Under the pieces are notes generated by a model. It did not search any database, was not told the origin of the DNA, and saw nothing but the letters and a program-made list of their open reading frames with translations. Below are positions 5,170-48,010 of a DNA stretch of 64,000 nt, in pieces (positions within the stretch are counted from its first letter, which is position 1; every line of letters begins with the position of its first letter). Location of the stretch: the NCBI RefSeq assembly GCF_900302455.1, contig NZ_ONZG01000001.1:62001-126000 (forward strand), in the 5' to 3' direction. Made by a program: the position numbers and the translations under genes. This stretch comes from Falsiruegeria mediterranea M17. Its GTDB lineage: Bacteria; Pseudomonadota; Alphaproteobacteria; Rhodobacterales; Rhodobacteraceae.

Positions 5170-5275
5170 TCTGCGGGGCCGCGCCGCGCGCAGCGCGGCG
5201 CCCGGCCCAACGGGAGGAGGTGTTTCGTCAGAAACATCGACGACGGGCGGGAGCACCTCCCGCTTCGTGGGCACT
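5170..5275 (+). repeat. Structured intergenic repeat, copy A
   Basis: It lies between convergent genes. It starts with a perfect 9-bp hairpin (GCGCCGCGC 5181-5189, GCGCGGCGC 5193-5201), then GGCCCAACGGGAGGAGG (5204-5220). A second hairpin follows, TGTTTC-GTCA-GAAACA (5221-5236), and then TCGACGACGGGCGGGAG (5237-5253). The last block plus its preceding ACA is a 20-nt exact match to copy B. CACCTCC (5254-5260) can also pair back with GGAGGTG. Confidence 0.75.
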
Positions 5276-5290
5276 TCAGGCAAAGAGAAC

Positions 5291-6082
5291 CTAGGCAGCA
5301 GCGGCCTCTTCCAATGGCGGGGTGAAGCGATGGTGTTTAATCTGCTCACCGTTGATTTCAATAGCTTCCCCAGCCGGCACCTCGATCCACTTTTTCTGTT
5401 CATCGTCCAACGGCTCAGACGACACGATGATCCCGTGGGCACAGCGGCGGTGAAACAGGCTTGGCGCAAATGCATCCGAAGCATAGCGCGCCGCAAAGAG
5501 CCGCTGTCCATCGGACCAACATGCTGCAAACCGCATGAACGGCGACACACCTCGTCTGCGCGACAGCACCTCAACCCGGCCAACCGCGCGAGCCATCGCG
5601 CCAATCGGATCGATATCCAACCCTTCGCCCAGGGCAATCAAAAAGATCGCCTCGCTTTCGGTTGCGCCAAGACGATATTCGTAACAGTCAGGCGGGATCA
5701 TCCCGTCCAGCTCTTGTCGAATTCGCTCGTGTCCCCCCGCTTGGCCATTGTGCATGAAGCTCCAGCGTTTGTGCCCAAAGGGGTGGCAATTGTTGCGCGA
5801 CGTGGCCGTTCCTGTCGAGGCCCGCACATGCGCCAGAAACAGACGTGACCGCGTGTGATGCGCCAGTTGGCGAAGGTTCGCATCAGACCAGGCCGGGTTG
5901 GTGTCCTTATAGAAACAAGGGCTCTCACGCTCGCAATACCACGCCAAACCAAAACCATCCGCATTGATCGGCGTCTTGCCGATCATCGCATTGCGGCTTT
6001 GTTCGACCAGCGATTGTTCTTGGTTGAGGACCAGTTCATCAAAATAGCGCGGCGCACCTGTCCACGCGAGAAATCGGCACAT
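5291..6082 (-). CDS. Class II glutamine amidotransferase
   Basis: The protein is 263 aa when started at the ATG at 6082, so that Cys2 (MCRFLAW) becomes the N-terminal nucleophile after Met removal, as class II (Ntn) amidotransferases require. A longer open frame with 14 extra residues would bury this cysteine and is rejected. Other motifs are INADGFGLAWY, LFLAHVRASTG, HPFGHKRWSFMHNGQ and a later SEAIF. It resembles the stand-alone YafJ/EgtC-like family, whose members hydrolyse gamma-glutamyl amides. The exact substrate is not predictable. The gene is downstream of rmuC on the same strand with a 136-nt gap. Confidence 0.85.
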   Translation of the reverse strand: MCRFLAWTGAPRYFDELVLNQEQSLVEQSRNAMIGKTPINADGFGLAWYCERESPCFYKDTNPAWSDANLRQLAHHTRSRLFLAHVRASTGTATSRNNCHPFGHKRWSFMHNGQAGGHERIRQELDGMIPPDCYEYRLGATESEAIFLIALGEGLDIDPIGAMARAVGRVEVLSRRRGVSPFMRFAACWSDGQRLFAARYASDAFAPSLFHRRCAHGIIVSSEPLDDEQKKWIEVPAGEAIEINGEQIKHHRFTPPLEEAAAA

Positions 6083-6218
6083 TTGGGAATTCCGTTTGGG
6101 GCTGTCTTTGCACAGAGCATACACCCCAAGAAATGAGGTTTTTCACCAAACCCCTTGCCAAAAACTTGAACCTATCAATCATATGACCCCAAGAACGTCT
6201 TAGAGTCGGGTCAACTCC

Positions 6219-7457
6219 TCACTCACCTGGCTTGGTCAATGGAACAACTGACCCGGTGTCTTCAGGTGCCAACTCTTCGAAATCAAAATTGTCCAACCGC
6301 AGAGCCCGACGCCCCGCCTTGTCGGCGCTGATCTTGATGTCCGAGATATCTTTCGCCGCCTGCCCGAAATGCCGGTCCAGATTGGCCACCCGGTCGCCTA
6401 GACGTTCCACATCCTTGTGCAGCAATCCCAATTCTTTGCGGATTGCGCCCGCCTGTTCGCGCATCCGGGCATCTTTGAGAATTGCCCGCATGGTGTTGAG
6501 CGTCGCCATACAGGTCGTCGGCGAGACGATCCACACCCGCGCCGAAAATCCTTCGCGTACGATCTCGGGAAAGTTCGCGTGCAGTTCGGCATAGACCGCC
6601 TCTGACGGCAGGAACATCAAAGCGCCATCCGCGGTTTCGCCCTCGATGATGTATTTCTCGGAAATTGCCTTGATGTGGGTCCGCAGCGCCGTGCGGATCA
6701 TCCGCGCGGCCTCGTTCAATTCGCTTTGCGTCTCGGCCCGGCGCAACGCCTCGTAAGGCTCCAGTGGGAACTTGCTGTCGATCACGATGGGACCCGGCGG
6801 GTTGGGTAGGTGGATCAGACAGTCCGCTCGCTTGCCATTCGACAGCGTGTGCTGCAGGGCATAGCTGTCGGACGGCAGCGCCTTGGACACGATGTCATTC
6901 AGCTGAATTTCCCCAAACGCCCCGCGTGTTTGCTTGTTTGAAAGGATGTCCTGCAGACTCAGAACATCACCCGACAGTTTGGTGATGTTGTCCTGCGCCT
7001 TGTCGATTGTCTTGAGCCGTTCCTGCAACTGCGTCAGCGAAGTTGCGGTCTGTTTCGACGAGCCATGCAGGCTCTCTTTCATCCGCTCCTGCATCTCGGC
7101 CAAAGCGCGGGCCGAGCGCATGGCATTGTCCGCCAATCGATCGTTCATGTGCTGCTGCACATCCCCCAGGCGCGCCTCCATCGTCTGGATCACCTGCACC
7201 TGTGCATTGGCTTGCGTGTCCGACACATGCTGTAACCCGCCACGCAACTGCTCTTGGCCCGCGCCCAACTGCTGTACGTTTTGACCCAAGATCGCCATCT
7301 GCTGCGTCAACGGTTCCGCCATCCGGGCCGAGCGGTTGGCCGCTCGCAGGCTGAGAAACACCATCAAAGCGATAAGCAGCAAGATCGCGGCCGCACCAAG
7401 GGCCATCAGGACCATCGGGTCCTCCAGCGAATAGGTCTGTCCTGCAATCTCGATCAT
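6219..7457 (-). CDS. rmuC: RmuC family DNA recombination protein
   Basis: This 412-aa protein has an N-terminal transmembrane helix (MVLMALGAAAILLLIALMVF), a long predicted coiled coil (residues about 45-165, rich in Q, E and A), and the conserved RmuC domain (QTRGAFGEIQLNDIV, VIDSKFPLEPYEALRRA, FLPSEAVYAEL, VWIVSPTTCMATLNTMRAI). RmuC is thought to limit inversions at short repeats and carries a PD-(D/E)XK-like nuclease fold. It follows mutL on the same strand, fitting a genome-maintenance neighbourhood (ada, rmuC, mutL). Confidence 0.92.
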   Translation of the reverse strand: MIEIAGQTYSLEDPMVLMALGAAAILLLIALMVFLSLRAANRSARMAEPLTQQMAILGQNVQQLGAGQEQLRGGLQHVSDTQANAQVQVIQTMEARLGDVQQHMNDRLADNAMRSARALAEMQERMKESLHGSSKQTATSLTQLQERLKTIDKAQDNITKLSGDVLSLQDILSNKQTRGAFGEIQLNDIVSKALPSDSYALQHTLSNGKRADCLIHLPNPPGPIVIDSKFPLEPYEALRRAETQSELNEAARMIRTALRTHIKAISEKYIIEGETADGALMFLPSEAVYAELHANFPEIVREGFSARVWIVSPTTCMATLNTMRAILKDARMREQAGAIRKELGLLHKDVERLGDRVANLDRHFGQAAKDISDIKISADKAGRRALRLDNFDFEELAPEDTGSVVPLTKPGE

Positions 7458-7518
7458 CGTCGCCTCGCCTGTGTTCTCTTTTTGTTTTCCTGATCTCTAG
7501 CGAGGGGACCGGGGAAAA

Positions 7519-9399
7519 TCAACTGCGTCCGAACAGCCGTTCGATGTCTGCCAGCTTGAGCTCGACATAGGTCGGCCGCCCATGGTTACATTGGCCGGAA
7601 TGGGGCGTTGCTTCCATCTCGCGCAACAGCGCGTTCATCTCTTCACCGCGCATCCGGCGACCTGACCGGATCGAGCCATGACAGGCCACGCGGCTCAGAA
7701 TCGCCTCGATTCGGGCTTGCACCATCTGGCTTTCGCCCTGATCGGCCAACTCATCCAGAATATCCAGAATCATCGCCCGGGCGTTTACCTCGCCCAGGAT
7801 GGCCGGGGTTTCGCGCACAGCCACCGCATTGCCGCCGAATGCTTCAAGTGTCAAACCAAGTTTGCTCAAGTGATCCGCAACGTCGAGCAGTCTGGCGCGA
7901 TCGCCCTCGGACAGCTCAACAATCTCAGGGATCAGCAGCGCCTGTGCAGCGACCCCGTTTTCGGCCATCTGGGTTTTGAGTTTTTCATAAACCAGCCGCT
8001 CGTGCGCAGCGTGTTGATCCACGATCACCATGCCATCGGCGGTCTGCGCGATGATGTAGTTTTCGTGCACCTGCCCGCGCGCGGCCCCAAGCGGCAGTTG
8101 CTCCACTGGTGTCTCGGGAGTTTGGTCTTCGACTACGGCAGCGGGCTCGATCATCTGCCCAGAGTAGCTTTGCGACAGCTCGGCAAACCCTGGCGTTGGC
8201 ATCGGCTCGGGCGCTTGCGCGCGGTAAGCGGCGGTACGTGCCCCCATCGACGGTCGGTCCATCTGATAGATGCGCGCGGGACCGGGGTGCGGCGCAGTCT
8301 CGGGTCGCATCGCGCCCAGGGTGGCATTTGCCACGGTGGTCGACGCACGATGCCCAGCATCCGCCAAAGCGTGGCGCAGGGTCGAGATGATCAGCCCGCG
8401 CGCGATGCCAGGGTCGCGGAACCGAACCTCGGATTTGGCGGGGTGGACGTTCACGTCGACCAAAGTCGGGTCGCAATCCACGAACAGGGCCGCCGCCGGG
8501 TGACGATCCCGGCTAAGGAAATCGAAATAGGCCGCCCTGAGCGCGCCGGTCAGCATCTTGTCCCGCACGGGCCGCCCATTGACGAACAGGTACTGAGATA
8601 CGGCGGCGCCGCGGGAATACGTCGGCAGAGCTGCATAACCATACAGGCGAATGCCCTCACGTTCGGCTTCAATCCGCAAAGCGTTTTCAGCAAACTCACG
8701 CCCAATGACACGGGCCAGGCGCGCGTGCAGCGCATCAAACAGATCACCGCTTTCGGCATCGGCCCGGAACACGATCCGTCCTTCTCCGCCACCGGACACA
8801 TCGCGCAAGGTCAGCCCGATCGATGGCTCTGCCATCGCCAGCCGCTTGATCGTGTCGGTGATCGCTTGCGCTTCGGCCCGGTCGGTACGCATGAACTTGA
8901 GCCGCGCAGGGGTCGCAAAGAAGAGATCTCGCAGTTCGACTACAGTTCCAGATCGCAAGGCCGCCGGTTTGACTGGCTCGACCCTTCCACCTGCAACGCG
9001 GATCATCGCAGCCTCGTCCCCCGGAACCCGGCTGGTGATAGTCAGACGCCCCACGGCCCCCAGCGAAGGCAGCGCCTCGCCCCGGAACCCAAAGGTATGG
9101 ATGTCCAGCAGGTCCGAACCGTCGATTTTCGACGTTGCATGGCGGGACAAGGCCAGCGGCAGCTGCTCGGGCGAAATCCCGCAACCGTCATCCGTGACCC
9201 GGATCAGGGTCTTGCCCCCGTCGGCGATGTCCACGCTGATCCGTGAGGCACCTGCGTCGATGGCGTTCTCGACCAGCTCCTTGACGGCGGACGCGGGGCG
9301 TTCGACAACTTCGCCCGCTGCAATCCGGTTGATTGCCGCGTCGTCAAGTTGCCGGATAACCGGTCGAAAACCGCTGATATTGGGGTCCAGGCTTGCCAT
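7519..9399 (-). CDS. mutL: DNA mismatch repair protein MutL
   Basis: This 626-aa protein has the GHKL ATPase domain first: IAAGEVVERPASAVKELVEN with the catalytic Glu, then ENAIDAGA, DDGCGI and TFGFRGEALPS. A linker of about 100 residues leads to the C-terminal dimerisation domain. That domain carries DQHAAHERLVYE, which fits the DQHA(X)2E(X)4E endonuclease motif, plus ACHGSIRSG and QCNHGRPTY, so this is a nicking MutL, as expected where MutH is absent. The start at 9399 gives MASLDPNISG ahead of the conserved IRQLDD; an internal start closer to this block is possible. No gene is visible in the 272 bp between mutL and sitD. Confidence 0.95.
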   Translation of the reverse strand: MASLDPNISGFRPVIRQLDDAAINRIAAGEVVERPASAVKELVENAIDAGASRISVDIADGGKTLIRVTDDGCGISPEQLPLALSRHATSKIDGSDLLDIHTFGFRGEALPSLGAVGRLTITSRVPGDEAAMIRVAGGRVEPVKPAALRSGTVVELRDLFFATPARLKFMRTDRAEAQAITDTIKRLAMAEPSIGLTLRDVSGGGEGRIVFRADAESGDLFDALHARLARVIGREFAENALRIEAEREGIRLYGYAALPTYSRGAAVSQYLFVNGRPVRDKMLTGALRAAYFDFLSRDRHPAAALFVDCDPTLVDVNVHPAKSEVRFRDPGIARGLIISTLRHALADAGHRASTTVANATLGAMRPETAPHPGPARIYQMDRPSMGARTAAYRAQAPEPMPTPGFAELSQSYSGQMIEPAAVVEDQTPETPVEQLPLGAARGQVHENYIIAQTADGMVIVDQHAAHERLVYEKLKTQMAENGVAAQALLIPEIVELSEGDRARLLDVADHLSKLGLTLEAFGGNAVAVRETPAILGEVNARAMILDILDELADQGESQMVQARIEAILSRVACHGSIRSGRRMRGEEMNALLREMEATPHSGQCNHGRPTYVELKLADIERLFGRS

Positions 9400-9671
9400 A
9401 CCGCTAGACCTAGCATGGTCACACGCGATTCTGCCACCCGTTTACTGCTGAAAGCGAAAGACCCGGCGCGCCCATTTTGCGACGTTTGAAGACAATCAAC
9501 AAAACCTGTGGGCGGCACCGGGCCTTGAGTGAGTGGTGGTCATCTCAGGGCTGAAATTCGCCCTTGCCATAAATTGAAGCTGGGGACTTTGCCTGCTGTT
9601 TTTAACCCCCGCGTCACGCAGAGTTTACCAGTGGCTCACTTCGGCAACGGCTTGGCCCGGCCTCGCAACGC

Positions 9672-10601
9672 TCAGGCCTGTGCCGGGGCACCGGCTCGTT
9701 TTCGGCAAGGTCCGAACAATGCGGTAAGCGCAAGAATGACGCCCGAAACAGTCGCAATCATACCTGCTGCGCTGACTGCGTCTGCCGCACCCAACCACAG
9801 TGGACCATAGCCCGCAAAAACATACCCCACGATGGCCGAGGTTGTGGCGAACCCGATGCTCCAAGCGATCTGACGCTCCAACTGATTGGTCATCATCCGC
9901 GCAGCCGCGGGTGGGCAGATGAACATGGCGATCACGATGATCGACCCCACAGCGTCAAAGGCGGCAACCGCGGCAATGGCCGCAACCACGACCAGCGCCA
10001 ATCCCAGAACATTGGTGCGGATGCCCATGGTCCGGGCAAACCCCTCATCAAAGGTCGAGATCTTGAGAGGTCGCCAGAACAGCCAAATGAAGGCGATAAC
10101 CCCGATCAGAGTCGCGGCGATCCGGCCCAGTTCCACGGGCAACCCTGCCAAAGCCTGTGCATCCAGAAGCGAAGACCAGCCGACAGCATCCAGCCAGATC
10201 AGGCTTTCCAAATTGCCATAAAGCGCATGTTCCACGTCCAGATGCACTGACGAGGTGTCTGTTTGTTCCAAAAGCAGAACGCCGCCCGCAAACATGGTGG
10301 TGAACACCACGCCCATGGCCGCACCTGGTTCGATCCGGCCCAGACGGCGGATGGCTTCGATCATCACAACGGCCAATAAGGCGGCTCCGGCGGCACCCAA
10401 CATCATCGGCCAGGCCGAGATCACTCCGGTCAGCAGAAAGGCCACGACAATGCCCGGAAGAACCACATGGCTAATGGCATCGCCAATCAGGGCCTGTTTG
10501 CGCAGCACCAGAAAGTTGCCTGGCAAGGCACAGGCAACAGCCGCAAAGATCCCGATCAACAGGGGTGTCAGAGACAGCGGGACAAATTCTTCGCCGCTCA
10601 T
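9672..10601 (-). CDS. sitD: Metal (Mn/Zn/Fe) ABC transporter permease SitD
   Basis: This 309-aa integral membrane protein of the ABC-3 family has about 8-9 hydrophobic helices. The family signature is visible in LVLRKQALIGDAISHVVLPG near the N-terminus and MFICPPAAARMMTNQLERQI in the cytoplasmic coupling region. It is the last gene of sitABCD: its ATG overlaps the sitC stop by 4 nt, so the two permeases are translationally coupled and presumably heterodimerise. The substrate is inferred as manganese from the operator type and from the role of sit operons in this bacterial group. Confidence 0.9.
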   Translation of the reverse strand: MSGEEFVPLSLTPLLIGIFAAVACALPGNFLVLRKQALIGDAISHVVLPGIVVAFLLTGVISAWPMMLGAAGAALLAVVMIEAIRRLGRIEPGAAMGVVFTTMFAGGVLLLEQTDTSSVHLDVEHALYGNLESLIWLDAVGWSSLLDAQALAGLPVELGRIAATLIGVIAFIWLFWRPLKISTFDEGFARTMGIRTNVLGLALVVVAAIAAVAAFDAVGSIIVIAMFICPPAAARMMTNQLERQIAWSIGFATTSAIVGYVFAGYGPLWLGAADAVSAAGMIATVSGVILALTALFGPCRKRAGAPAQA

Positions 10602-11803
10602 GCGGGCACCTCCTGCGGGCCACCGATGCGGCGGTCGATGTCGACGATCTGGTCCTTGGTCAGGACCGTTTCGATGTCGCGCAGCCCATCGTAAAGCGCC
10701 GCCGCAGCCTCATGCGACTGGTCGGCGCGCACAACTTCCCATCGCTTCTCGTCACGCAGGGCCTTGGCGGCGCGAGCGCGGCCGAGCTCGGTCGCGACCC
10801 CGTCGGCGCGGGCGAAACCGGCACGCGAGAGCAGACGCAGCGTAAGGCGCTCATAGATCGGTTGCCCTTGGGCCAGAGCCAGAAGCCCCTGGCGCAGGTG
10901 CACCCGGCGCTGGAACCGCAGATGCCCCAGGATCGCCGCCAGAACGCCCCGATTGGGCGCCAACAGCATCGACAGCGCAAAGAGCGCAAAACTCACCAAG
11001 ACAATGATGGGACCGGTTGGCAGATTGGGGGCTGAGGCCGAGATCGCAGCGCCGACAAAGCCGGACACGCCACCCGCCAGACCGCTGAGCAGAACCACGC
11101 GGTCCGAGCGTTCTGTCCAGAAACGTGCCGTCACGGGCGGGATGATCAGCAGTGCCACGATCAGGATCAGACCAACGATTTTCAGCCCCACGACCGTGAC
11201 GGCCATCACCAACCCCATCATCGCAAGATCGATGCGTGCCACGGGCAGACCGCGTGCGGCGGCATATTCGGGGTCAAACGACACCAACGTCATCGGGCGG
11301 CGCAAGAGCAGGATCAACAGCAGCGTCGCGCCGCCGCCCACCGCGATGATCATCGCATCGGCCCACAGCATGCCCGCGGTCGAGCCCAGCAAGAACCCCT
11401 CGAGCCCCGCTTGCCGCCCAACGCCCATGGTTTGGATCACGGTTAGCAATACGACGCCAAAGCCAAAGAACACCGACAGGACAGAACCGATGGCTGCATC
11501 CTCGGCCAATCGGGTGTGGCGCGTCAGCCAGTTAAGGCACAAGAGCCCAACCCAAGCCGACAGGGCAGAGCCGAGCAAAAGGCCGATCAGGTTGCGGCCG
11601 TCCCCGCCCAGCGCAACCATCACCATGAAGGCGATGCAGACACCTGGCAAAGTTGCATGACTGATCGCATCGCTGACAAGGGCGCGTTTTCGCAGGAACA
11701 AAAAGGTGCCAGTTACACCGGCAGACACGCCTAACAGGGCCGCGCCAATGGCAACCAAGGTGGCGTTGTAGCCAAGCTGTAAAAGCAAAGCATCGCTGAG
11801 CAT
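10598..11803 (-). CDS. sitC: Metal ABC transporter permease SitC with DtxR-like C-terminal extension
   Basis: At 401 aa this is about 110 residues longer than a plain ABC-3 permease. Residues 1-290 are the permease (FLRKRALVSDAISHATLPGV, LLIIPPVTARFWTERSDRVV). After the last helix comes a soluble tail with winged-helix character (LTLRLLSRAGFARADGVATE), followed by ALRDEKRWEVVRADQSHEAA and a stretch ending DIETVLTKDQIVDIDRRIGG. The tail resembles the DNA-binding and dimerisation parts of DtxR/MntR regulators. Similar fusions occur in some metal permeases; whether the tail senses metal or has only a structural role is unknown. It overlaps sitD and lies 19 nt after sitB. Confidence 0.88.
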   Translation of the reverse strand: MLSDALLLQLGYNATLVAIGAALLGVSAGVTGTFLFLRKRALVSDAISHATLPGVCIAFMVMVALGGDGRNLIGLLLGSALSAWVGLLCLNWLTRHTRLAEDAAIGSVLSVFFGFGVVLLTVIQTMGVGRQAGLEGFLLGSTAGMLWADAMIIAVGGGATLLLILLLRRPMTLVSFDPEYAAARGLPVARIDLAMMGLVMAVTVVGLKIVGLILIVALLIIPPVTARFWTERSDRVVLLSGLAGGVSGFVGAAISASAPNLPTGPIIVLVSFALFALSMLLAPNRGVLAAILGHLRFQRRVHLRQGLLALAQGQPIYERLTLRLLSRAGFARADGVATELGRARAAKALRDEKRWEVVRADQSHEAAAALYDGLRDIETVLTKDQIVDIDRRIGGPQEVPA

Positions 11804-11822
11804 AACGATTGCGTCCGTCTAT

Positions 11823-12626
11823 CTAGCCGGCCGCGCGCGACAGTTGGTCGATCTGCGCGGTTGCCAGGCGACCGCCATAAGCGGCCTGAAGCGTTTCAGC
11901 GGTAAAGGCCACGTCCACCGGTCCTTCGGCCACTTTGCGAGTGTTGATCAGGAACACGTGGTCAAAATAGTCGGTCACCGTTGCGAGGTCGTGATGCACC
12001 ACAACCACTGTTTTCCCGGCGTCCTTGAGCGATTTCAGCACTGCGATGATCGCCTTTTCGGTTGCAGCGTCAACACCGGCAAAAGGCTCATCCAGCAGAT
12101 ACAGGTCCGCATCCTGCGCCAGCGAGCGAGCGAGGAAGACGCGCTGCTGCTGCCCGCCAGACAGTTGACCAATCTGGCGGTCGGCAAAATCGCGCATACC
12201 CACACGGTTCAGGCAATCCATCGCCTTGGCCTTGTGTCGTCCGCGAAGACGGCCCAGCAGACCAAGCTCGCGGTATAGCCCCATAAGAACAACGTCGATC
12301 ACGCGGGTCGGAAAATCCCAATCAACGCTTGCGCGCTGCGGGACATAGGCGACGCGGGCGCGCTGATCCTCGAGCGGTTTTCCAAAAGCTGTGACCTGCC
12401 CCGACAGCGGTTTGACGATACCCAGTGCGGCCTTGAGCATGGTCGACTTGCCCGCGCCATTTGGACCAATAACCGCAGTCATTGCACCAGCTTGAACGGT
12501 CATATCCACCGAGAACACGGCTGGTTTCTGACCATAAGAGACAGTCAGTCCCCGGATCGCTAGTGGGCTTTCAGCCAAAGCTTCGTTGGTGTTTGCAATA
12601 CCGTTGCTGCTTGCCAGTTCCAACAT
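11823..12626 (-). CDS. sitB: Metal ABC transporter ATP-binding protein SitB
   Basis: This 267-aa ATPase has Walker A GPNGAGKST, Q-loop VPQRASVDWDFPTRV (the WDFP element is typical of manganese/zinc importers), signature LSGGQQQR, Walker B DLYLLDEPF and switch histidine VVVHHDL. It energises the SitC/SitD permease. The start is separated from the sitA stop by 3 nt, so the genes are one operon. The first ~20 residues (MLELASSNGIANTNEALAES) are poorly conserved, so a later start is conceivable. Confidence 0.93.
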   Translation of the reverse strand: MLELASSNGIANTNEALAESPLAIRGLTVSYGQKPAVFSVDMTVQAGAMTAVIGPNGAGKSTMLKAALGIVKPLSGQVTAFGKPLEDQRARVAYVPQRASVDWDFPTRVIDVVLMGLYRELGLLGRLRGRHKAKAMDCLNRVGMRDFADRQIGQLSGGQQQRVFLARSLAQDADLYLLDEPFAGVDAATEKAIIAVLKSLKDAGKTVVVVHHDLATVTDYFDHVFLINTRKVAEGPVDVAFTAETLQAAYGGRLATAQIDQLSRAAG

Positions 12627-12629
12627 CGC

Positions 12630-13583
12630 TCAGAACCCCGCCGACAGCTTGCCGTCCATGCCGCGCGCAGGCACTTCTGCGCCCAATGCCCCGGCAATGA
12701 CCGTGATGTTGTGATCGAGCATGCCGATGTAGGTTCCCTCATAGGTGCCCTCTTCGCCCATAGCATCGCTAAAGAGTTCGCCACCGACGTGCACTTTGTG
12801 CCCCTTCGCCGCGGCCCCTTCGATCAGGGCGCGAATGGACCGATCAGAGACCGAGCTTTCGACAAAGACGGCAGTGATCTGGCGATCAACCAACAGGTCC
12901 ACCAGTTCACCGATGCGGTTCAGGCCCGCCTCGGACTGGGTCGAGATGCCTTGGATACCCAAAACCTCATACCCATAGCTGCCACCGAAATAGCCAAAGG
13001 CATCATGCGCCGTCAGCAAAACGCGGTTGGTTTCGGGCACTTGAATCAGGGTTTCGGCCGCGTAAGCGGACAGGCGGTCCAGATCGGCCAGATGCTTTTC
13101 AGCGTTGGCCGCGAAGACTTCCGCCGCCTCAGGACGTACGTCGGTCAAGGCTTTTTGCACTTCGATCACCACATCTCGCCACAGGTCCGGGGTCATCCAC
13201 ACATGCGGGTCAAATTTGTCGGCATAGTCGTCATGGGCACGCAGTTTCGATTTGTCCAAGCCCTCGGCCACAGCCACAACGGTGCGCTTGCGTTCGAGAT
13301 CGTGAAAGAAACCTTCCATCTGCGCCTCAAGGTACAGCCCATGCCACAGGATCAGATCGGCGCGGGTCATGGCCACGATGTCGCTGCGGGTCTGGCGATA
13401 GGCATGCGGGTCAACGCCCGGCCCCATCAGGCCCTTCACCTCAACCTCATCCCCGCCGACTTGGCGGGCTGCATCCGCGATCATGCCCGTTGTGGCCACC
13501 ACCTTGAGCGGGTCCTGCGCCCAGGCCGTGAACGGCAGGGCCAGCAGTACACCAGCAATCAGCAAAGAGCGTCGCAGAATCAT
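12630..13583 (-). CDS. sitA: Metal ABC transporter substrate-binding protein SitA
   Basis: This 317-aa periplasmic cluster-9 (ZnuA/TroA-like) binding protein has signal peptide MILRRSLLIAGVLLALPFTA with cleavage near AWA. Likely metal ligands are the histidines in GVDPHAYR, FDPHVW and LLTAHDAFGYFGGSYGYEV, plus an acidic residue near the C-terminus. There is no long His-rich loop of the kind seen in many ZnuA proteins, which favours manganese. I chose ATG 13583 (AGAGG about 6 nt upstream) over a 14-residue longer frame that lacks a ribosome site and would spoil the signal peptide. It is the first gene of sitABCD. Confidence 0.92.
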   Translation of the reverse strand: MILRRSLLIAGVLLALPFTAWAQDPLKVVATTGMIADAARQVGGDEVEVKGLMGPGVDPHAYRQTRSDIVAMTRADLILWHGLYLEAQMEGFFHDLERKRTVVAVAEGLDKSKLRAHDDYADKFDPHVWMTPDLWRDVVIEVQKALTDVRPEAAEVFAANAEKHLADLDRLSAYAAETLIQVPETNRVLLTAHDAFGYFGGSYGYEVLGIQGISTQSEAGLNRIGELVDLLVDRQITAVFVESSVSDRSIRALIEGAAAKGHKVHVGGELFSDAMGEEGTYEGTYIGMLDHNITVIAGALGAEVPARGMDGKLSAGF

Positions 13584-13614
13584 GTCGAACCTCTGGTTTG
13601 TACGTCCAACATAA

Positions 13615-13663: not shown

Positions 13664-13671
13664 TAAAGTCT

Positions 13672-14565: not shown

Positions 14566-14583
14566 AAGATTTTCCAACCCTGA

Positions 14584-35932: not shown

Positions 35933-35982
35933 GCCCGCCAACATCAAATTGAAATTGCGAGCGTCACAGCTTCGTTCCCGGT

Positions 35983-36066
35983 GCCCTCCCGCCCGCCTTA
36001 CGTGCATCAAAGATGCCCTCCTCCCGTTGGCCAGAAAGAAGTCGTGCGCCTCGCTACGCTCGGCGG
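35983..36066 (-). repeat. Structured intergenic repeat, copy C (minus strand)
   Basis: Reading the minus strand: CCGCCGAGCGTAGCGAGGC (36066-36048), then GGCCAACGGGAGGAGG (36032-36017), then a hairpin GCATC-TTT-GATGC (36016-36004), then GGCGGGCGGGAGGGC (35997-35983). The first block differs by one base from copy B. The second is like copy A with one C fewer. The hairpin has wholly different bases yet stays self-complementary. It lies between convergent genes. Confidence 0.7.
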
Positions 36067-36129
36067 TTGGCGCTTGTCGCGAACCGAGTGCCCCAAGCGA
36101 TGCCGCGCCGGGAGCACCCCCGGACTGGA

Positions 36130-40543: not shown

Positions 40544-40625
40544 GCCTTGTTATTCATCGGTGACTTGAACGGATTGTGCCGCTATCCTCTGCCTCAAACG
40601 CCAAAGAGCGTAAGAGGCAGCTTCG

Positions 40626-42365
40626 ATGTTCAGTCCAGATTCCATGGCCAGTCGACGCACGCGGTTCCTGAACCGTCTGTACGCACGTCTGAGCCAGCGG
40701 CGAAAATCGCTTACCGGTTTTGTCTCACAGCCCGAACCGCGCACCATCGGCTCGTTTGCGCGCGGCCGTCAGTTGGTGGCGGGCAACCTGCTCTTTGCCG
40801 GGTATCTGGTGGAATCCAAAGAAAGCGGATTGTGGGAGGTCAAAGCCCCCAACGCCGCCTTCGATGCCGAGCGTCACGGGTTTGCCTGGCTGGATGATCT
40901 GGCCGCCGTAGGGGATTTCGCCGCGCGCGAAAAAGCCCAAAAATGGCTGTGGGGCTGGATCAAGGTGCATGGCGACGGGCGCGGTCCCGGCTGGACACCG
41001 GAACTGGCGGGCCGCCGCCTAATCCGCTGGATCAACCACGCGCTGTTCCTGTTGCGGGGGATGGAACCCGCGCAAAGCGATGCGTTCTTTTTGTCTTTGG
41101 CGCAGCAAACCTGGTTCCTGTCGAAACGCTGGCCCGCCGCAACGCCCGGCCTGCCCCGGTTCGAAGCACTCACCGGATTGATCTACTCAGGCCTAGCGCT
41201 GGAAGGGAGCGAAGAACTGGCCGACCCAGCGGTGCGTGCATTGGCGATGGACTGCCAAACTCAGATCGACGAGCAAGGCGGGTTGCCCACGCGCAACCCC
41301 GAAGAACTGCTTGAAGTCTTCACCCTGCTCACATGGGCCTCTGCCGCCCTGCATGAAGCCGGACGTGGCAATCCGCCTGAGCATTCCGCCGCCATTGCGC
41401 GGATCACGCCAACGCTGCGCACCCTGCGCCACGCCGATGGCGGCCTGGCCCGGTTTCATGGTGGCGGTCGTGGTCTGGAAGGGCGATTGGATCACGCTTT
41501 GGCTGCCAGCCCCGTCAAACCGATGCACTCCGAAGGGCTGGCCATGGGCTATGCCCGCCTGTCAGCCCACCGCACCAGCGTGGTGATCGACGCCAGCCCA
41601 CCGCCTTCGGGCGCGGCGTCGTTCAACGCGCATGCATCGACACTGGCATTTGAACTCACTTCGGGGCGTCGTCCGTTGATCGTCAACTGCGGCTCAGGAG
41701 AGACCTTTGGCATTGATTGGCGCCGCGCTGGTCGGGCCACGCCGTCACACTCGACGCTGTGTCTGGATGGCTATTCCAGCGCCCGCCTGGCCGATCCGAT
41801 CAAAGGCACCGCTTACGAGGCTTTGGTCGACGCCCCCAAACATGTTCCCATCGAAATGTCCGAAGCCCCCGATGGCATCCGGTTTCAGGGCGGGCACGAC
41901 GGCTATGCCGCTGTCTTTGGCCTGACCCATGCCCGAACGCTGGAACTGACGCTCGACGGTCGTGGCATGGTTGGCGAAGACATGTTGTTCGCTCTTGAAG
42001 ACGACGCCAAGCGCAAGTTCAACAAGGCGATGGATGCAACGGTGCTGGCTGGAATAGGATTCGATATCCGCTTGCACTTGCATCCCGACGTCGACGCGGC
42101 AGTGGATTTGGGCGGTGCGGCCGTGTCGATGGCGCTCAAGAGCGGAGAGATCTGGGTTTTCCGTCATGACGGTCAATTTAAATTATCACTGGAACCAAGT
42201 GTTTACCTAGAAAAGAACCGTCTGAAGCCGCGCGCGACAAAACAGATCGTTCTATCCGGGCGCGCAATGGAGTATGCGACGCGCATCCGGTGGTCGCTGA
42301 GCAAGGCGCAGGACACTGCGGTTGCCATTCGCGATCTGAACCGGGACGAACCCGAATTCGACTGA
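40626..42365 (+). CDS. Heparinase II/III family protein
   Basis: This 579-aa protein has an N-terminal (alpha/alpha) toroid region (residues about 1-300; RRLIRWINHALFLLRGMEPA) and a C-terminal heparinase II/III beta-sandwich (RPLIVNCGSGETFGIDWRRA and GRATPSHSTLCLDGYSSARL). No signal peptide is seen, so a cytoplasmic or unconventional location is implied. The family cleaves acidic polysaccharides by beta-elimination; the substrate here is unknown. The gene ends 21 nt before purH, and this rsmB-heparinase-purH order looks like an operon. Confidence 0.85.
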   Translation: MFSPDSMASRRTRFLNRLYARLSQRRKSLTGFVSQPEPRTIGSFARGRQLVAGNLLFAGYLVESKESGLWEVKAPNAAFDAERHGFAWLDDLAAVGDFAAREKAQKWLWGWIKVHGDGRGPGWTPELAGRRLIRWINHALFLLRGMEPAQSDAFFLSLAQQTWFLSKRWPAATPGLPRFEALTGLIYSGLALEGSEELADPAVRALAMDCQTQIDEQGGLPTRNPEELLEVFTLLTWASAALHEAGRGNPPEHSAAIARITPTLRTLRHADGGLARFHGGGRGLEGRLDHALAASPVKPMHSEGLAMGYARLSAHRTSVVIDASPPPSGAASFNAHASTLAFELTSGRRPLIVNCGSGETFGIDWRRAGRATPSHSTLCLDGYSSARLADPIKGTAYEALVDAPKHVPIEMSEAPDGIRFQGGHDGYAAVFGLTHARTLELTLDGRGMVGEDMLFALEDDAKRKFNKAMDATVLAGIGFDIRLHLHPDVDAAVDLGGAAVSMALKSGEIWVFRHDGQFKLSLEPSVYLEKNRLKPRATKQIVLSGRAMEYATRIRWSLSKAQDTAVAIRDLNRDEPEFD

Positions 42366-42386
42366 TCACGACAAGGATCCAAGCCC

Positions 42387-43976
42387 ATGACCGACCTTCA
42401 TCCCGTGCGCCGCGCGCTGCTTTCCGTTTCCGATAAGACCGGATTGATCGAGCTCGGCCAGGCACTGACCGCACGTGGGGTCGAGCTGCTGTCGACCGGC
42501 GGCACCGCCAAGGCGCTGCGCGAGGCAGGGCTGGAGGTCAAGGACGTGTCTGATGTGACCGGCTTCCCCGAGATGATGGACGGTCGCGTCAAGACCCTGC
42601 ACCCGATGGTGCATGGCGGTCTGCTGGCCCTGCGTGACAACGATGCCCACGTTGCTGCGATGAACGAACATGGCATCGGCGCCATCGACCTGCTGGTGGT
42701 AAACCTCTACCCGTTCGAGGCGGCCTTGGCCCGTGGCGCCGGTTATGACGAAATGATCGAGAACATCGATATCGGCGGCCCGGCGATGATCCGCGCGGCG
42801 TCGAAGAACCACCTGTTCGTAAACGTGGTGACCGACGTTGAAGATTACGACGCGCTGCTGACCGAACTGGACGCCAACGACGGTCAGACGTCCTATGCGT
42901 TCCGCCAGCGTCTGTCGCAGATCGCCTATGCCCGCACGGCGGCCTATGACGCAGCCGTGTCGACCTGGATGGCCGGCGCCATTGGCGAAGAAACTCCACG
43001 CCGCCGCGCCTTTGCAGGCGAGGTCAAACAGACCCTGCGCTATGGCGAAAACAGCCACCAGAAGGCCGCGTTCTACACCGATGGCTCGAACCGTCCGGGC
43101 GTTGCGACTGCCGTGCAGCTGCAGGGCAAGGAGCTGTCTTACAACAACATCAACGACACCGACGCCGCCTATGAGCTGGTGGCTGAGTTTGACCCGGCCG
43201 AAAGCGCCGCGGTTGCCATCATCAAACACGCCAACCCCTGCGGCGTAGCCAAGGGCGCGAGCCTGGTCGAGGCCTATCAGAAGGCCTTTGACTGCGACCG
43301 CACCTCAGCCTTTGGTGGGATTGTCGCGCTGAACCAGCCGCTGGATGCCGCAACCGCTGCAAAGATCGTCGAGATCTTTACCGAGGTCGTGATTGCACCG
43401 GGCGCATCGGACGAAGCGAAAGAGATTTTCGCCGCCAAGAAAAACCTACGCCTGCTGCTGACCGACGCCCTGCCCGACCCGCGCGCGCCCATCACCGCTT
43501 ACAAGCAGGTTGCAGGCGGTGTTCTGGTTCAGGACAAGGACGTTGGCTATGTGGGACTGGATGACCTGAAAGTCGTGACCAAGAAGGCGCCCACGGACGA
43601 GCAGCTGCAAGATCTGCTCTTTGCCTGGAAAGTTGCAAAACACGTCAAATCAAACGCCATCGTCTACGTCAAGGACAACGCCACCGTGGGCGTTGGTGCA
43701 GGTCAGATGAGCCGTTTGGACAGTGCCAACGTGGCCGCTGCCAAAGCCGGGCGCATGGCCGCCGAACTGGGCCTGGACGAGAGCCTTGCCAAAGGCTCGG
43801 CAGTGGCCTCGGACGCATTCTTCCCCTTTGCTGACGGCTTGCTCGAGGCGGCTGCCGCAGGTGGCACTTGCGTGATCCAGCCGGGCGGTTCGATGCGCGA
43901 TGACGAAGTAATCGCGGCTGCGGACGAGGCCGGTCTGGCCATGGTCTTTACCGGCATGCGCCACTTCCGCCACTGA
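42387..43976 (+). CDS. purH: Bifunctional AICAR transformylase/IMP cyclohydrolase PurH
   Basis: This 529-aa enzyme performs the last two steps of IMP synthesis. The N-terminal cyclohydrolase domain contains [20 protein letters not shown] and [20 protein letters not shown]. The C-terminal transformylase has [36 protein letters not shown] (catalytic Lys-His) and [13 protein letters not shown]. The length is standard. The stop overlaps the lspA start by one base (TGATG), coupling the two. Confidence 0.96.
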
Positions 43977-44467
43977 TGCGCTATGGTCCCCTCATATGGG
44001 CCGCCTTCTGGGCCTTTCTGCTCGACCAGATCAGCAAGTATCTGGTCGTGCATGTCATGCGAGTGGCTGATCAACCCGGTGGCATTGACGTGCTGCCGCC
44101 ACTGCTGACGTTCAAGTATGGCGAAAACCGCGGCATCAACTTTGGCCTGTTTCAGGGCGACAGCTCGGCCTCGGTCTGGATCCTGATCGGATTGTCCGTC
44201 GCCATCTGTCTGGGCGTGTTTCTTTGGCTGGCGCGCTCAAATCCCAATCGCTGGATGCTGATGAGCGGAGGCCTGCTGATCGGTGGGGCTTTGGGCAACG
44301 TGGTGGACCGTCTGCTTTATGGCTATGTGCTCGATTTCCTGAACATGTCCTGCTGCGGCATCAACAATCCTTTTGTGTTCAACGTTGCCGACGTTTTCAT
44401 CTTTGCGGGCGCCGCCGGGCTAATCTTGCTGGACAGCAAGAACACGCCAACAAAAAAGGCCCCGTGA
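43976..44467 (+). CDS. lspA: Lipoprotein signal peptidase LspA
   Basis: This 163-aa inner-membrane aspartyl protease has four transmembrane helices. Conserved elements are [10 protein letters not shown] near the N-terminus, [33 protein letters not shown] (first catalytic Asp) and [18 protein letters not shown] (second catalytic Asp). It removes signal peptides from prolipoproteins. It is followed 50 nt later by a lipoprotein gene (bamF), a natural client. Confidence 0.94.
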
Positions 44468-44517
44468 CGGCGCGCGCCAAATGCGTTAAAAGCCTCTCAA
44501 ACAGGCAGGAGACAACC

Positions 44518-45036
44518 ATGCGGACGCCGCTTGGAATGATTGCATTGATCGCTGTTGTGGCTGCATCGGGATGCAGCCGGGGCGACGGTTTGAAAGACAT
44601 CCGGTCCACAGGGGATGGACCGGACGAGTTTGCAGTCATGCCTGTGAAACCCCTGACCGCACCTTCGGACTATGCCGTCCTGCCTGCCCCGACTCCGGGC
44701 GGTGCAAATCTTACCGATCCGAATCCAACGGCTGATGCCGTCGTGGCCCTTGGTGGTCGGGCATCTGCGCTTGAAGATACCGGCGTTCCATCGTCAGACA
44801 GCGCCCTGGTTGCAGCAACCAGCCGATATGGCGTGCCTGCGAATACACGCACTTCTCTGGCGCAAGAAGACGCTGAGTTCCGCAAACGTCAAGGCCGCTG
44901 GACCCGTATCAAGCTGTTCCCGGTGGATCGTTACGAGCAAGTCTACCGCAAGGAATCGCTGGACCCGTACCAACAGACTGACCAATTCCGCAATTCCGGT
45001 TTTGGCACGCCTTCGTCACCACCTGCGGGTGAATGA
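44518..45036 (+). CDS. bamF: BamF-like lipoprotein (DUF3035)
   Basis: This 172-aa lipoprotein has lipobox AASGC with Cys19 as the lipidated residue. The DUF3035 signature GPDEFAVMPVKPLTAPSDYA and LPAPTPGGANLTDPNPTADA is present. In alphaproteobacteria DUF3035 proteins have been identified as the BamF subunit of the beta-barrel assembly machine at the outer membrane. It sits between lspA, which would process it, and two M16 proteases. AGGAGA precedes ATG 44518. Confidence 0.85.
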   Translation: MRTPLGMIALIAVVAASGCSRGDGLKDIRSTGDGPDEFAVMPVKPLTAPSDYAVLPAPTPGGANLTDPNPTADAVVALGGRASALEDTGVPSSDSALVAATSRYGVPANTRTSLAQEDAEFRKRQGRWTRIKLFPVDRYEQVYRKESLDPYQQTDQFRNSGFGTPSSPPAGE

Positions 45037-45051
45037 TGCTGTGATCACGGA

Positions 45052-45088
45052 CTGACGCGGGAATGAAGTTTTCTTAATTTTGCGTCAG
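45052..45088. other. Inverted repeat between bamF and the M16 operon
   Basis: CTGACGC (45052-45058) and GCGTCAG (45082-45088) are exact complements with a 23-nt T-rich spacer. It could be a bamF terminator or an operator for the downstream promoter; no T tract follows on the plus strand. Confidence 0.4.
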
Positions 45089-45094
45089 CCCTCC

Positions 45095-45122
45095 TTGAAC
45101 ATGGAGCGTCCTGTCGTAGGTT
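45095..45122 (+). promoter_or_regulatory. Candidate sigma70 promoter of the M16 protease pair
   Basis: TTGAAC (45095-45100) and TAGGTT (45117-45122) have a 16-nt spacer and lie 28 bp before ATG 45151. The -35 box is good and the -10 box moderate. Confidence 0.35.
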
Positions 45123-45150
45123 GACACACAACCGTCACGGAGGACGCCTG

Positions 45151-46494
45151 ATGATCCGAGCATTTGCTTTGGCCGTCGCAGTCTGTTCCGCCGCGCCCCT
45201 GTGGGCCGAGCAAGAGCAACGCGAAGAAGTAACAACCTTTACCCTGGACAACGGCATGGATGTCGTCGTGATCGAAGATCACCGCGCTCCGGTTGTTCAG
45301 CACATGGTCTGGTATCGCGCCGGATCAGCCGATGAACCCGTCGGAGTTTCCGGCGTAGCCCATTTCCTGGAACATCTGCTGTTCAAGGCCACCGACACTC
45401 TGGAATCGGGTGAATTTTCCGCCACAGTTGCCGCCAACGGCGGACGCGACAACGCATTTACATCGTATGACTACACCGCCTACTTTCAACGTGTGGCCGC
45501 CGACCGGCTTGAGCTGATGATGCAGATGGAAAGCGACCGGATGCGCAACATTCGCCTAACAGAGCGCGACATCGCCACCGAGCGCGACGTGATTCTGGAA
45601 GAGCGCAATCAACGCACCGACAGCAACCCGCGTTCATTGTTTGGCGAACAACTCAACGCCTCGCAGTACCTCAACCACCGCTATGGTGTGCCCATCATCG
45701 GTTGGCGACACGAGATGGAAGAGCTGGACATGGAGGACGCATTGTCTTTCTACCAGACCTACTATTCACCCAACAACGCCATCCTAATCGTTTCGGGCGA
45801 CGTGGAGCCGGACGAGGTCAAGCAATTGGCTGACAAATACTATGGCGTCATTCCGGCCAACCCGGATTTGCCAGAACGCACCCGCAGCCAGGAACCACCC
45901 CAAACTGCCGCCCGCCGCATCGTCTATGAAGACGCCCGCGTCGCGCAGCCTTATGTCCATCGCTCTTACCTGGCGCCCGAACGTGATCCAGGCGAGCAGG
46001 AAGACGCAGCCGCTCTGTTCATGTTGGCGCAGCTTCTGGGAGGCGGAACGACATCGTACCTGAACGAAAAACTGCAATTCGACACGCAGACGGTGGTCTA
46101 TGTCGGCGCTTTCTACAATGGCACGTCGCTGGACGACACGACCTTTGACCTGATCGTTGTGCCCAGCGAAGGCGTGACGCTGCAAGAGGCAGAAGATGCC
46201 ATGGACGCCACCATTGCCGAGTTCATCGCCGAAGGTGTCGACGCAGGCGACCTGGATCGAATCAAGATGCAGCTTCGCGCCTCGCAGATCTATGCGCGTG
46301 ACAATGTGGACGGGATTGCCAATCGCTATGGTCAAGCGTTGACCTCAGGCCTGACGGTCGAGGATGTGCAGGCTTGGCCCGAAATCCTGCAGGCCGTCAC
46401 TGATGAGCAGATCATCGCGGCCGCAAAATCCGTGATCCAACCTGAAACATCCGTAACCGGCTGGCTGATGCGCGAGCAGGAGGTGACCCAATGA
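45151..46494 (+). CDS. M16 zinc metalloprotease, catalytic subunit
   Basis: This 447-aa periplasmic protein has signal peptide MIRAFALAVAVCSAAPLWAE. The inverted zinc motif HxxEH is His71-Phe-Leu-Glu74-His75 in VAHFLEHLLFKATDTLESGE, with the further Glu ligand in ERDVILEERNQR. The second M16 domain has RVAQPYVHRSYLAPERDPGE and AQLLGGGTTSYLNEKL. Such proteases work as pairs with a non-catalytic partner, encoded immediately downstream (ATGA overlap). Start 45151 follows GGAGG. Confidence 0.9.
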   Translation: MIRAFALAVAVCSAAPLWAEQEQREEVTTFTLDNGMDVVVIEDHRAPVVQHMVWYRAGSADEPVGVSGVAHFLEHLLFKATDTLESGEFSATVAANGGRDNAFTSYDYTAYFQRVAADRLELMMQMESDRMRNIRLTERDIATERDVILEERNQRTDSNPRSLFGEQLNASQYLNHRYGVPIIGWRHEMEELDMEDALSFYQTYYSPNNAILIVSGDVEPDEVKQLADKYYGVIPANPDLPERTRSQEPPQTAARRIVYEDARVAQPYVHRSYLAPERDPGEQEDAAALFMLAQLLGGGTTSYLNEKLQFDTQTVVYVGAFYNGTSLDDTTFDLIVVPSEGVTLQEAEDAMDATIAEFIAEGVDAGDLDRIKMQLRASQIYARDNVDGIANRYGQALTSGLTVEDVQAWPEILQAVTDEQIIAAAKSVIQPETSVTGWLMREQEVTQ

Positions 46495-47801
46495 AACTGT
46501 TCCTGAGTACCCTCGCTGCCGTATTCTTGGCCCTGCCCGTCTGGGCCGAGGTCAAAATTCAAGAGGTGACATCACCCGGCGGCATCGACGCCTGGCTGGT
46601 CGAAGAGCACTCGATCCCCTTTACCGCGCTTGAAATCCGCTTTCGCGGCGGCACATCGCTGGACGCTCCAGGCAAGCGTGGGGTGACCAACCTGATGATG
46701 GGTCTGATCGAAGAAGGCGCGGGTGATCTGGACGCACGAGCCTATGCCCGCAAGCTGGAATCTCTCGCGGCCTCGTTCTCCTACAATGCCGATGATGACT
46801 CGGTGTCGATCTCGGCCCGTTTTCTGACCGAGAACCGGGACGAGGTGATCGATCTGCTGCGCACAACACTCCACCAGCCGCGATTTGATCAGGACGCCAT
46901 CGACCGTGTGCGGGCCCAAGTCGTCTCGGGGTTGAAATCCGACGCCGAGGACCCGAACACAATCGCGGGCGAAGCCTTTTCGACGATGGCGTTTGGTGAC
47001 CATCCCTACGCCACAGATGGCAAGGGAACAGTGGACAGCGTGTCCGCCCTGACCCGAGACGATATCGTTGCGGCACACAAGAATATTCTGGCGTTGGATC
47101 GCATCTATGTTGGGGCCGTCGGCGACATCACTGCCGAAGAGTTGGGCGCGTTGCTGGATGAGTTGTTGGCCGATCTGCCCGCCGCCGGCGCACCGATCCC
47201 CGGCAAGGCAGATGTGACAATCGACGGCGGTGTGACCGTGGTCGACTTCAACACCCCACAATCCGTGGCACTGTTCGGTCACAGTGGCATCGACCGCGAT
47301 GACGAGGACTTCTTTGCGGCTTACATCCTGAACCACATCCTGGGGGCAGGATCTTTTGAAAGCCGCCTGATGTCGGAAGTCCGTGAAAAACGCGGCCTTA
47401 CCTATGGTGTTTATTCCTATCTCGTGCCCAAGGATCTGGCCTCGATTTATCTGGGCAGCGTGGCGTCAGGCAACGCGCGTATCGCCGAAGCCATTGACGT
47501 GATCCGCGCCGAATGGACCCGCATGGCCAAGGAGGGCGTCACCGAGAAAGAACTTCAGGACGCCAAAACCTATCTGACCGGCGCCTACCCGCTGCGGTTT
47601 GATGGCAACGGCCAGATTGCGGGGATCATGGTCGGCATGCAGATGCAGGATCTGCCCATCGACTATATCGCCACCCGCAACGACAAGGTGAATGCCGTAA
47701 CGATTGAAGACATCAAGCGGGTCGCAGGCGAGTTGCTGAAACCCGATGAGCTGCACTTTGTGGTGGTTGGCAAGCCCGAAGGGTTGGAGACAACCAACTA
47801 G
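46491..47801 (+). CDS. M16 family protein, non-catalytic partner
   Basis: This 436-aa periplasmic M16-fold protein has signal peptide MKLFLSTLAAVFLALPVWAE. Where the catalytic copy has HxxEH, this one reads GVTNLMMGLIEEGAG, so the zinc ligands are absent. The C-terminal domain retains the substrate-arch features (HILGAGSFESRLMSEVREKR). By analogy with mitochondrial processing peptidase and bacterial paired M16 proteases it should form the heterodimer partner. Its start overlaps the catalytic gene's stop by 4 nt, favouring equal synthesis. Repeat copy B follows. Confidence 0.9.
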   Translation: MKLFLSTLAAVFLALPVWAEVKIQEVTSPGGIDAWLVEEHSIPFTALEIRFRGGTSLDAPGKRGVTNLMMGLIEEGAGDLDARAYARKLESLAASFSYNADDDSVSISARFLTENRDEVIDLLRTTLHQPRFDQDAIDRVRAQVVSGLKSDAEDPNTIAGEAFSTMAFGDHPYATDGKGTVDSVSALTRDDIVAAHKNILALDRIYVGAVGDITAEELGALLDELLADLPAAGAPIPGKADVTIDGGVTVVDFNTPQSVALFGHSGIDRDDEDFFAAYILNHILGAGSFESRLMSEVREKRGLTYGVYSYLVPKDLASIYLGSVASGNARIAEAIDVIRAEWTRMAKEGVTEKELQDAKTYLTGAYPLRFDGNGQIAGIMVGMQMQDLPIDYIATRNDKVNAVTIEDIKRVAGELLKPDELHFVVVGKPEGLETTN

Positions 47802-47877
47802 GCACCTAACCGCTCGGGGGCGCTCCCGCACCCGAGCGATCCCGACTTTGTCGGCACCGCTAACGGCTTTGGGCGGA

Positions 47878-47990
47878 GCGCCGGGCAATGCCCGGCGCGG
47901 CCTCACCAAGACGCACCCGCCGAGCGCAGCGAGGCACAGCCCAACTGGAGGACATGTCCCGCAAGGGACATCGACGACGGGCGGGAGAGC
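47878..47990 (+). repeat. Structured intergenic repeat, copy B
   Basis: Hairpin GCGCCGGGC-AAT-GCCCGGCGC (47878-47898) is followed by a spacer, CCGCCGAGCGCAGCGAGGC, then GCCCAACTGGAGGAC. The second hairpin is TGTCCC-GCAA-GGGACA (47955-47970), ahead of TCGACGACGGGCGGGAG (47971-47987). It fills most of the gap between the convergent M16 and SDR genes. The 3' block matches copy A exactly and the middle block matches copy C. Confidence 0.78.
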
Positions 47991-48010
47991 TCCCTTTCCG
48001 GACGGTGATC

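Follow-up and report, generated by a model that had tools for sequence, protein, structure and literature searches.

A REP-like repeat family at the 3′ ends of genes in Falsiruegeria mediterranea and other Rhodobacteraceae

The window analysed here is a stretch of 64,000 nucleotides from Falsiruegeria mediterranea M17 (contig NZ_ONZG01000001.1, positions 62,001 to 126,000; G000:C11:62001-126000 in our numbering of the 5.28 Mb genome, G000, in 49 contigs). It holds three copies, A, B and C, of a structured repeat, and Pfam assignments of the flanking genes place all three between convergent genes: PEP mutase and GATase at copy A, glycosyltransferase 11 and RNA pseudouridylate synthase at copy B, and peptidase M16 and short-chain dehydrogenase at copy C. 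The repeat belongs to a family of one- or two-unit elements that prefer the 3′ ends of genes, change their stems in a compensatory manner and are inherited at fixed positions, in part between genera. A sequence-only reading of the window had described the three copies, their strings and hairpins and their 3′-to-3′ gaps, and all of these are present. Its copy letters are out of step with its coordinates, which needs correction: the copies that share ACATCGACGACGGGCGGGAG are those at 5170 and 47878, and the ones with GGCC(C)AACGGGAGGAGG in common are at 5170 and 35983. The true start of the copy noted at 47878 lies near 47816, because a left unit is included (Table 1).

Chance is excluded genome-wide as the origin of the repeat. 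The pattern GGAGG..GGCGGGAG has 131 matches in this genome, copies bearing GGAGGAGG being counted twice, against 1 for the reversed control, and 123, 151 and 117 matches in three congeners. A covariance model built from 23 copies (R1) found at least 139 copies at an E value of 0.001 or better, a lower bound because scoring covered 150 of the 2175 first-look candidates. The real number is probably higher, since a further diverged unit, CTCCCGCCCCCGCTGCATGCCCTGACGGG..GGTTGGGCC at L345:10533-10590, is scored weakly (17.2 bits) by a second covariance model, R2. All 139 matches fall on 15 contigs; the remaining contigs (0.76 Mb) have 0 where 19.9 are expected, and copies are scarce on C19 (2 against 8.2 expected) and C14 (4 against 9.9), as if some replicons were without copies. 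A plasmid collection searched with a 211-nt query around copy C gave no match.

Each unit runs from a GC-rich hairpin 1 through GGCCCAACGGGAGGA, a variable hairpin 2 and GACGACGGGCGGGAG to YGCYYC, with GGAG and GGCGGGAG as invariant blocks. Hairpin 2, for which the model stem has eight pairs with wobble and mismatch allowed, occurs in the subtypes TGTTTC, TGTCCC, TTTTTC, GCATC and others. Of the 92 copies that have a 61-nt core and at least six of the eight pairs, 86 carry a GNNA loop in this hairpin, and other subtypes have 3-nt loops. Two tandem G.A motifs, with a Watson-Crick pair between them, are possible on the strand from GGGAGGA to GACGACGG. In a variant unit seen at L336 around 1850-1930 (G000:C13) and at about 263466 of G001:C1, a 16-bp hairpin, TGACCCCACTTCTGGC-AAA-.., replaces the G.A motif, and the two species differ there by changes that keep the pairs. 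A second, diverged unit lies on the left in opposite orientation, so that the GGGAG ends point outward, in 67 of the 139 copies; this assignment is pattern-based and leaves 34 of the 139 as 'other'. Among 97 loci from other genera plus the window, with six G-handle loci omitted, nine inverted pairs of units no more than 400 nt apart were found by eye in the other genera, all in the order minus then plus, and four of these nine rest on weak partners (E 0.002-0.008).

Table 1. Positions of the three copies and their parts, numbered from the first letter of the window
Feature	Position	Strand	Description
Copy A, single unit	5165..5263	+	Left end GGCGCTCTGCGG, hairpin 1, core, terminal GCGGGAG-CAC-CTCCCGC
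Hairpin 1 of copy A	5181..5201	+	GCGCCGCGC-GCA-GCGCGGCGC
Core of copy A	5201-5261	+	Covariance model match, 81.9 bits, E 7.1e-16
Hairpin 2 of copy A	5219..5238	+	GGTGTTTC-GTCA-GAAACATC
Copy B	35978..36121	-	Left-end remnant GGGGGTGCTCCCGG, then a spacer, a middle hairpin and the core; the most degenerate copy in the window
Core unit of copy B	35978..36036	-	GCATC-TTT-GATGC hairpin; 44.7 bits, E 1.6e-7
Middle hairpin of copy B	36048..36066	-	CCGCCGAGCGTAGCGAGGC
Copy C, two-unit	47816..47998	+	Left unit, spacer hairpin 47878-47898, middle hairpin 47917-47935, core
Left unit of copy C	47816..47874	-	Diverged, opposite orientation; runs from GGGGGCGCTCCCGC to CTTTGGGC
Core (right unit) of copy C	47935..47995	+	76.0 bits, E 1.5e-14

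The claim that the repeat is confined to convergent gaps holds for the window and fails for the genome, where 88 of the 139 copies are convergent, 48 tandem and 2 divergent, and 1 lies over a weak open reading frame of about 40 codons; these counts are approximate, since the home-made gene caller mistakes at least copy B for tandem where Pfam shows it to be convergent. The preference is nevertheless marked. In 0.8 Mb of the same-genus genome G001 together with the window, the three window copies included, gaps of 100 nt or more hold a pattern match in 19 of 46 cases when convergent, compared with 8 of 180 when tandem and 1 of 96 when divergent (19/124, 8/582 and 1/122, respectively, when gaps of all lengths are counted). 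In 70 of 116 cases no more than 20 nt separate the right end from the facing stop codon. Copies in tandem gaps have no clear orientation preference (27 reversed, 21 in the same sense; 20 versus 10 by orientation among those not scored as two-unit). The family thus has the general features of repetitive extragenic palindromes (REPs), namely many short extragenic palindromic copies that lie mainly downstream of genes and rarely between divergent genes, in agreement with the REP-like character suggested from the window alone.

The pairing of the stems is supported by covariation. In an alignment of 127 of the 139 copies, drawn from 100 of 112 loci, 85.8% of the cells are paired against 70.1% in shuffles, and a covariation score of 0.592 compares with 0.298, a value that not one of 500 shuffles brings up to the observed one. 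For 113 rows, three from the window and the rest from other genera, the corresponding values are 92.1% against 58.0% and 0.766 against 0.206, and slid controls reach at most 0.243 for the own copies and 0.111 for the 113 rows. The covarying structure under selection that had been proposed from three copies is therefore borne out, with several columns fixed in loci L131-L235, as these were retrieved by exact pattern. At the flanking pair 13-53 the 127 copies have G-C in 111, A-T in 7, G-T in 1 and a non-standard combination in 8. Pair 16-50 is G-C in 124 of the 127; in other genera it appears, by eye, as T-A (GATGA..GAAGA in L244 and L259, with L238 similar) or A-T (L241, L261, L262). Folded as single sequences, copy A (z -4.0) and copy C (z -2.8) are both better than 200 of 200 shuffles, and copy B is weak (z -1.9, with 10 of 200 shuffles as good). 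An outer terminal stem closing the whole element was considered and rejected: the ends resemble inverted repeats yet do not covary within copies, and in 57 copies they make 265 Watson-Crick pairs, compared with a mean of 275 (sd 9.8) when ends are swapped between copies.

Wobble pairs fall very unevenly on the written strand, with 114 G.T against 8 A.C in 105 copies. The ratio is 61:3 in convergent gaps, 18:3 in tandem gaps with the copy opposite to the genes and 18:1 with the copy in the same sense (90 of 92 copies), and 16:0 at a single orthologous site in 16 species. Since this asymmetry is independent of transcription, it leaves room for a role of single-stranded DNA. A replication-strand bias, looked for through local GC skew in scattered stretches only, was not seen (47 versus 57 of 105 copies with skew beyond 0.01).

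The covariance-model search of the Rhodobacterales that the sequence-only reading had called for found the element (R2) in 57 of 292 genomes and 22 of 113 genera of the order, and all 57 are Rhodobacteraceae. In the family sample, 22 of 149 genomes were positive (R1), and in a class sample of 289 genomes only the own genome matched; these large searches used strict filters. Further copies, an uneven spread over gap types and strong covariation were all found, so that the earlier proposal of a structured family stands.

The sites are inherited between species. Flanks in F. mediterranea and G001 are 76-94% identical, and in 0.8 Mb of G001 the element is kept at 19 of 20 sites with both flanks, a comparison whose unbiased part consists of these 20 rows only, as the other same-genus loci were found through the element itself. 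One site, C31:199993, which the pattern had flagged as absent, does show the element in the alignment; the single site without it is C24:226991, where the G001 gap holds about 1 kb of other sequence. Conversely, of the 31 pattern matches in the 0.8 Mb of G001, 24 lie at copies of the own genome and 1 at a gap with a variant unit, and 6 short ones are unplaceable. At C31:188800 G001 retains the left unit, the hairpin of the right unit having been lost between GGGAG repeats, and where G001 has one particular two-unit element, the own genome has just one variant unit, whose changes keep the pairs. Loci with syntenic flanks that carry names are from Tropicibacter sp., 83-95% identical over most matches. 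Positional inheritance extends in part to other genera: homologues (at least 60% identity) beside other-genus elements were found for 23 of 267 copy-adjacent genes and 5 of 374 others (p 1.3e-5), after removal of the same-genus loci L217, L219, L225 and L235 and with some control genes one gene away from the same sites.

The hairpins are less stable than the sites. In 38 orthologous pairs, which pool unbiased and ascertained sites (7 of 45 pairs had no pattern match), the best core match is the orthologue in 14, or in 21 when hairpin 1 is included. Base-pair changes in these pairs, 10 unequal-length pairs of the 38 being omitted, were both-sided in 12 cases, one-sided in 27 and broken in 15. 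That sites stay while hairpins turn over suggests that hairpin sequences are exchanged between copies.

The site downstream of an acyl-CoA dehydrogenase gene (P0001) illustrates this. In genus g44, which we take to be Ruegeria or a close relative since the site also exists in loci named as Ruegeria (L138, L222, L233), the element lies no more than about 20 nt from the stop codon in 23 of 30 species, 21 identified by pattern and two (L320, L326) by eye. Among the 16 species that could be measured, there are 11 different pairs of hairpin-2 arms; the other 14 of the 30 loci lack the element or have another loop or stop pattern. The g44 genomes listed with a match number 16, each with only 1 to 11 copies. 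A Ruegeria pomeroyi strain carries at least one copy (L205). In L325, L326, L327 and L329 a sense-strand TTTTT follows hairpin 1, which is imperfect in three of them. In L324 a classical, bidirectional-looking terminator, AAAAAAAGACCTCTT..AAGAGGTCTTTTT, occupies that position downstream of the gene, next to an element relic, CGTCCCGCCCG. L325 reads CGTC-ATTCC-TGAC-GGAAT, an order reminiscent of Neisseria dRS3.

With regard to known relatives, the sequence-only reading named no described family, and a close one does exist. REPs have been divided into GTAG and CGTC super-families, of which the CGTC REPs (PMC3733652) are mostly alphaproteobacterial, occur for the most part as dimers with their tags outward and apparently have no transposase of their own; their mover is not known and their function unsettled, and the authors leave a possible path to extinction open. 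In the genomes shown there, REPs in convergent gaps are mostly no more than 20 bp away from either 3′ end. The present family shares with the CGTC REPs the alphaproteobacterial host, CGTC on one side of the hairpin, outward paired units, a location near gene 3′ ends, both convergent and unidirectional, stem variants that are complementary, and GT pairs (PMC3733652). Outward-tagged dimers are prevalent here too, in the nine pairs of other genera and in the 67 two-unit copies of the own genome. RAYT (NF047646) and Y1 transposase (PF01797), the families searched as candidates for a dedicated transposase, have no match in the own genome; the controls were positive in 5 and 6 of 14 genomes.

In the finer details the agreement is mixed. 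CGTC, which in CGTC REPs stands unpaired at one stem end (also as TGTC or CCTC), is on the expected side in 126 of the 139 copies; as scored, it directly adjoins the best stem in just 9 of 138, and it is mostly set off from the Watson-Crick stem by potential G.A bases. Uninterrupted stems reach the 8-9 bp of CGTC REPs in 16 of 138 copies, with 6-7 bp in 78 and fewer in 44; the A-T and T-A pairs expected at positions 1 and 2 (AT..AT) are found in 6 of 138; and a loop of 4-5 nt is scored in 62 of 138. The units here are also longer than those described, with an extra hairpin and the blocks GGCCCAAC and GCGGGAG, and their stem starts and tails fit the published consensus poorly. Because the broad features fit while the published stem and tail details do not, we call the repeat a REP in general and CGTC-REP-like, not a proven CGTC REP. 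Neisseria dRS3 and Rickettsia RPE-4 and RPE-6 are named in PMC3733652 as CGTC repeats and share the CGTC of the present family; unlike it, CGTC repeats are described there with 8-9 bp stems, no second hairpin and other hosts. The GTAG REPs and REPINs (PMC3733652; see also PMC2817692 and PMC3116915) are similar in forming inverted pairs of extragenic palindromes at gene ends with alternative-stem subfamilies, whereas here GGAG or variants, not GTAG, precede the stem (by eye in the printed cores) and the genome gave no RAYT or Y1 match.

Other candidates were dropped. An integron attC-like site was considered through the RYYYAAC motif, and no GTTRRRY partner was seen by eye on the same strand; the anti-Shine-Dalgarno CcsR/cuckoo small RNAs did not fit, as CCTCC lies beside the stem and not in the loop. 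Rfam gave no match over the whole window at the gathering score, and for seven loci at E up to 1 only mir-4776, at E about 0.1 and far under its cut-off. A literature search found no paper on the present family: its sequence strings occur in four papers whose titles and abstracts are unrelated, the main text of a Ruegeria pomeroyi small RNA paper (PMC4809877) has nothing on the repeat, and the searched text passages of the RepRanger paper (PMC12306157) name neither Rhodobacter nor Ruegeria. In comparison with described REPs, the extended unit, the deep positional conservation with compensatory change and the one-strand wobble asymmetry are new.

We consider that these repeats are probably an old Rhodobacteraceae family of the REP class, nearest to the CGTC REPs, that has been kept as a folded 3′-end element limiting read-through, this last role being one that we infer. 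Copies would no longer spread by transposition. In line with roles proposed for other REPs, the folded, GC-rich structure just past the stop codon would limit read-through and antisense transcription between neighbours and would shield the 3′ end of the mRNA, while recombination would swap hairpin sequences between copies and leave the site itself in place. Several observations weigh against this. Relatedness among the rows inflates the covariation counts, as does the fitting of the alignments to the model. The wobble asymmetry favours one strand regardless of how the neighbours are transcribed, which a role in mRNA does not predict. Several details of the CGTC REPs are lacking, as described above. 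Simple intrinsic terminators are about as frequent at gene ends with the element (5 of 38 convergent, 2 of 8 tandem) as at others (35 of 210 and 89 of 574), giving no sign that the element replaces terminators. Lastly, the element is absent from the acyl-CoA dehydrogenase site in 7 of the 30 species. That site offers a direct test, as it combines an element kept in many species with natural losses and one terminator replacement.

A more tentative reading would be that the gene-end site is fixed and its invariant blocks inherited while stems are replaced wholesale by other genomic subtypes. The constraint would then act on the single strand, on which G.T is kept and A.C avoided whatever the direction of transcription, through a cellular protein that binds single-stranded DNA and recognises the stacked G.A pairs. 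We regard this as possible, though on the unlikely side.

The alternative that survives best is a selfish REPIN-like element that is or once was mobile, its mover being an enzyme that works on single-stranded DNA, and for which gene ends are merely harmless places to insert. Such an element would explain why the ends resemble inverted repeats that are conserved one by one and not through pairing, the outward GGGAG ends of two-unit copies, the one-strand excess of G.T over A.C in convergent and both tandem settings, the GNNA loops, and a patchy distribution both among genomes and among the contigs of the own genome. It sits badly with the stability of positions between species and with the want of a Y1 or RAYT match in the own genome; in the family sample a Y1 match was found in 15 of the 149 genomes and in only 4 of the 22 with the element (G010, G018, G091, G096). 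Nor was a clean empty site seen, since two closely viewed sites retain part of the element and the gap at C24:226991 holds other sequence, the seven empty acyl-CoA dehydrogenase sites lying outside this check. On this evidence we regard such an element as a doubtful explanation.

A bidirectional intrinsic transcription terminator, one of the roles suggested from the window, would account for the predominance of convergent gaps, and the hairpins followed by TTTTT in L325, L326, L327 and L329, the classical terminator in the same place in L324, a slight T excess (0.30-0.45) 9-13 nt past the right end and an A excess (0.30-0.42) 11-13 nt ahead of the left end all point in that direction. The T excess is, however, far under that of a U-tract, and a hairpin with an immediate T-tract occurs only in the four orthologues from another genus; the copies of the window genome have no T-tract, and no terminator-like site was found around copy C. 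Covariation is lacking at the outer ends, terminator content is similar whether or not a gene end has the element, and conservation as strong as that seen beyond the stems is unnecessary for a terminator. We therefore think a canonical terminator unlikely. Less probable again is a DNA-level site, bound by gyrase or a nucleoid protein, that absorbs supercoils between convergent genes. Gyrase targets REPs in E. coli (PMC3733652), and the high occupancy of long convergent gaps and the invariant blocks GGAG and GGCGGGAG would suit such a role, but a double-stranded site needs neither hairpin covariation nor loop conservation, and most genomes of the order have no detected element. A small RNA derived from the 3′ untranslated region, or a strand-specific mRNA element, as the sequence-only reading also envisaged, is very improbable, for while covariation, GNNA tetraloops and G.U pairs are what such an RNA would have, there is no clear orientation preference in tandem gaps and no Rfam match in the window or the seven loci.

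Whatever the role of the family, the covariance models make its annotation possible across a large group of marine bacteria. Among its copies, those of type III (for example L036 and L021) have a separate conserved leader, CTGCGCGGCC..GGCCTTGCGTCCTGCGGACGGCAGG, 5′ of the core; this leader could fold as two hairpins closed by CTGC/GCAG and is shared with loci from other genera.

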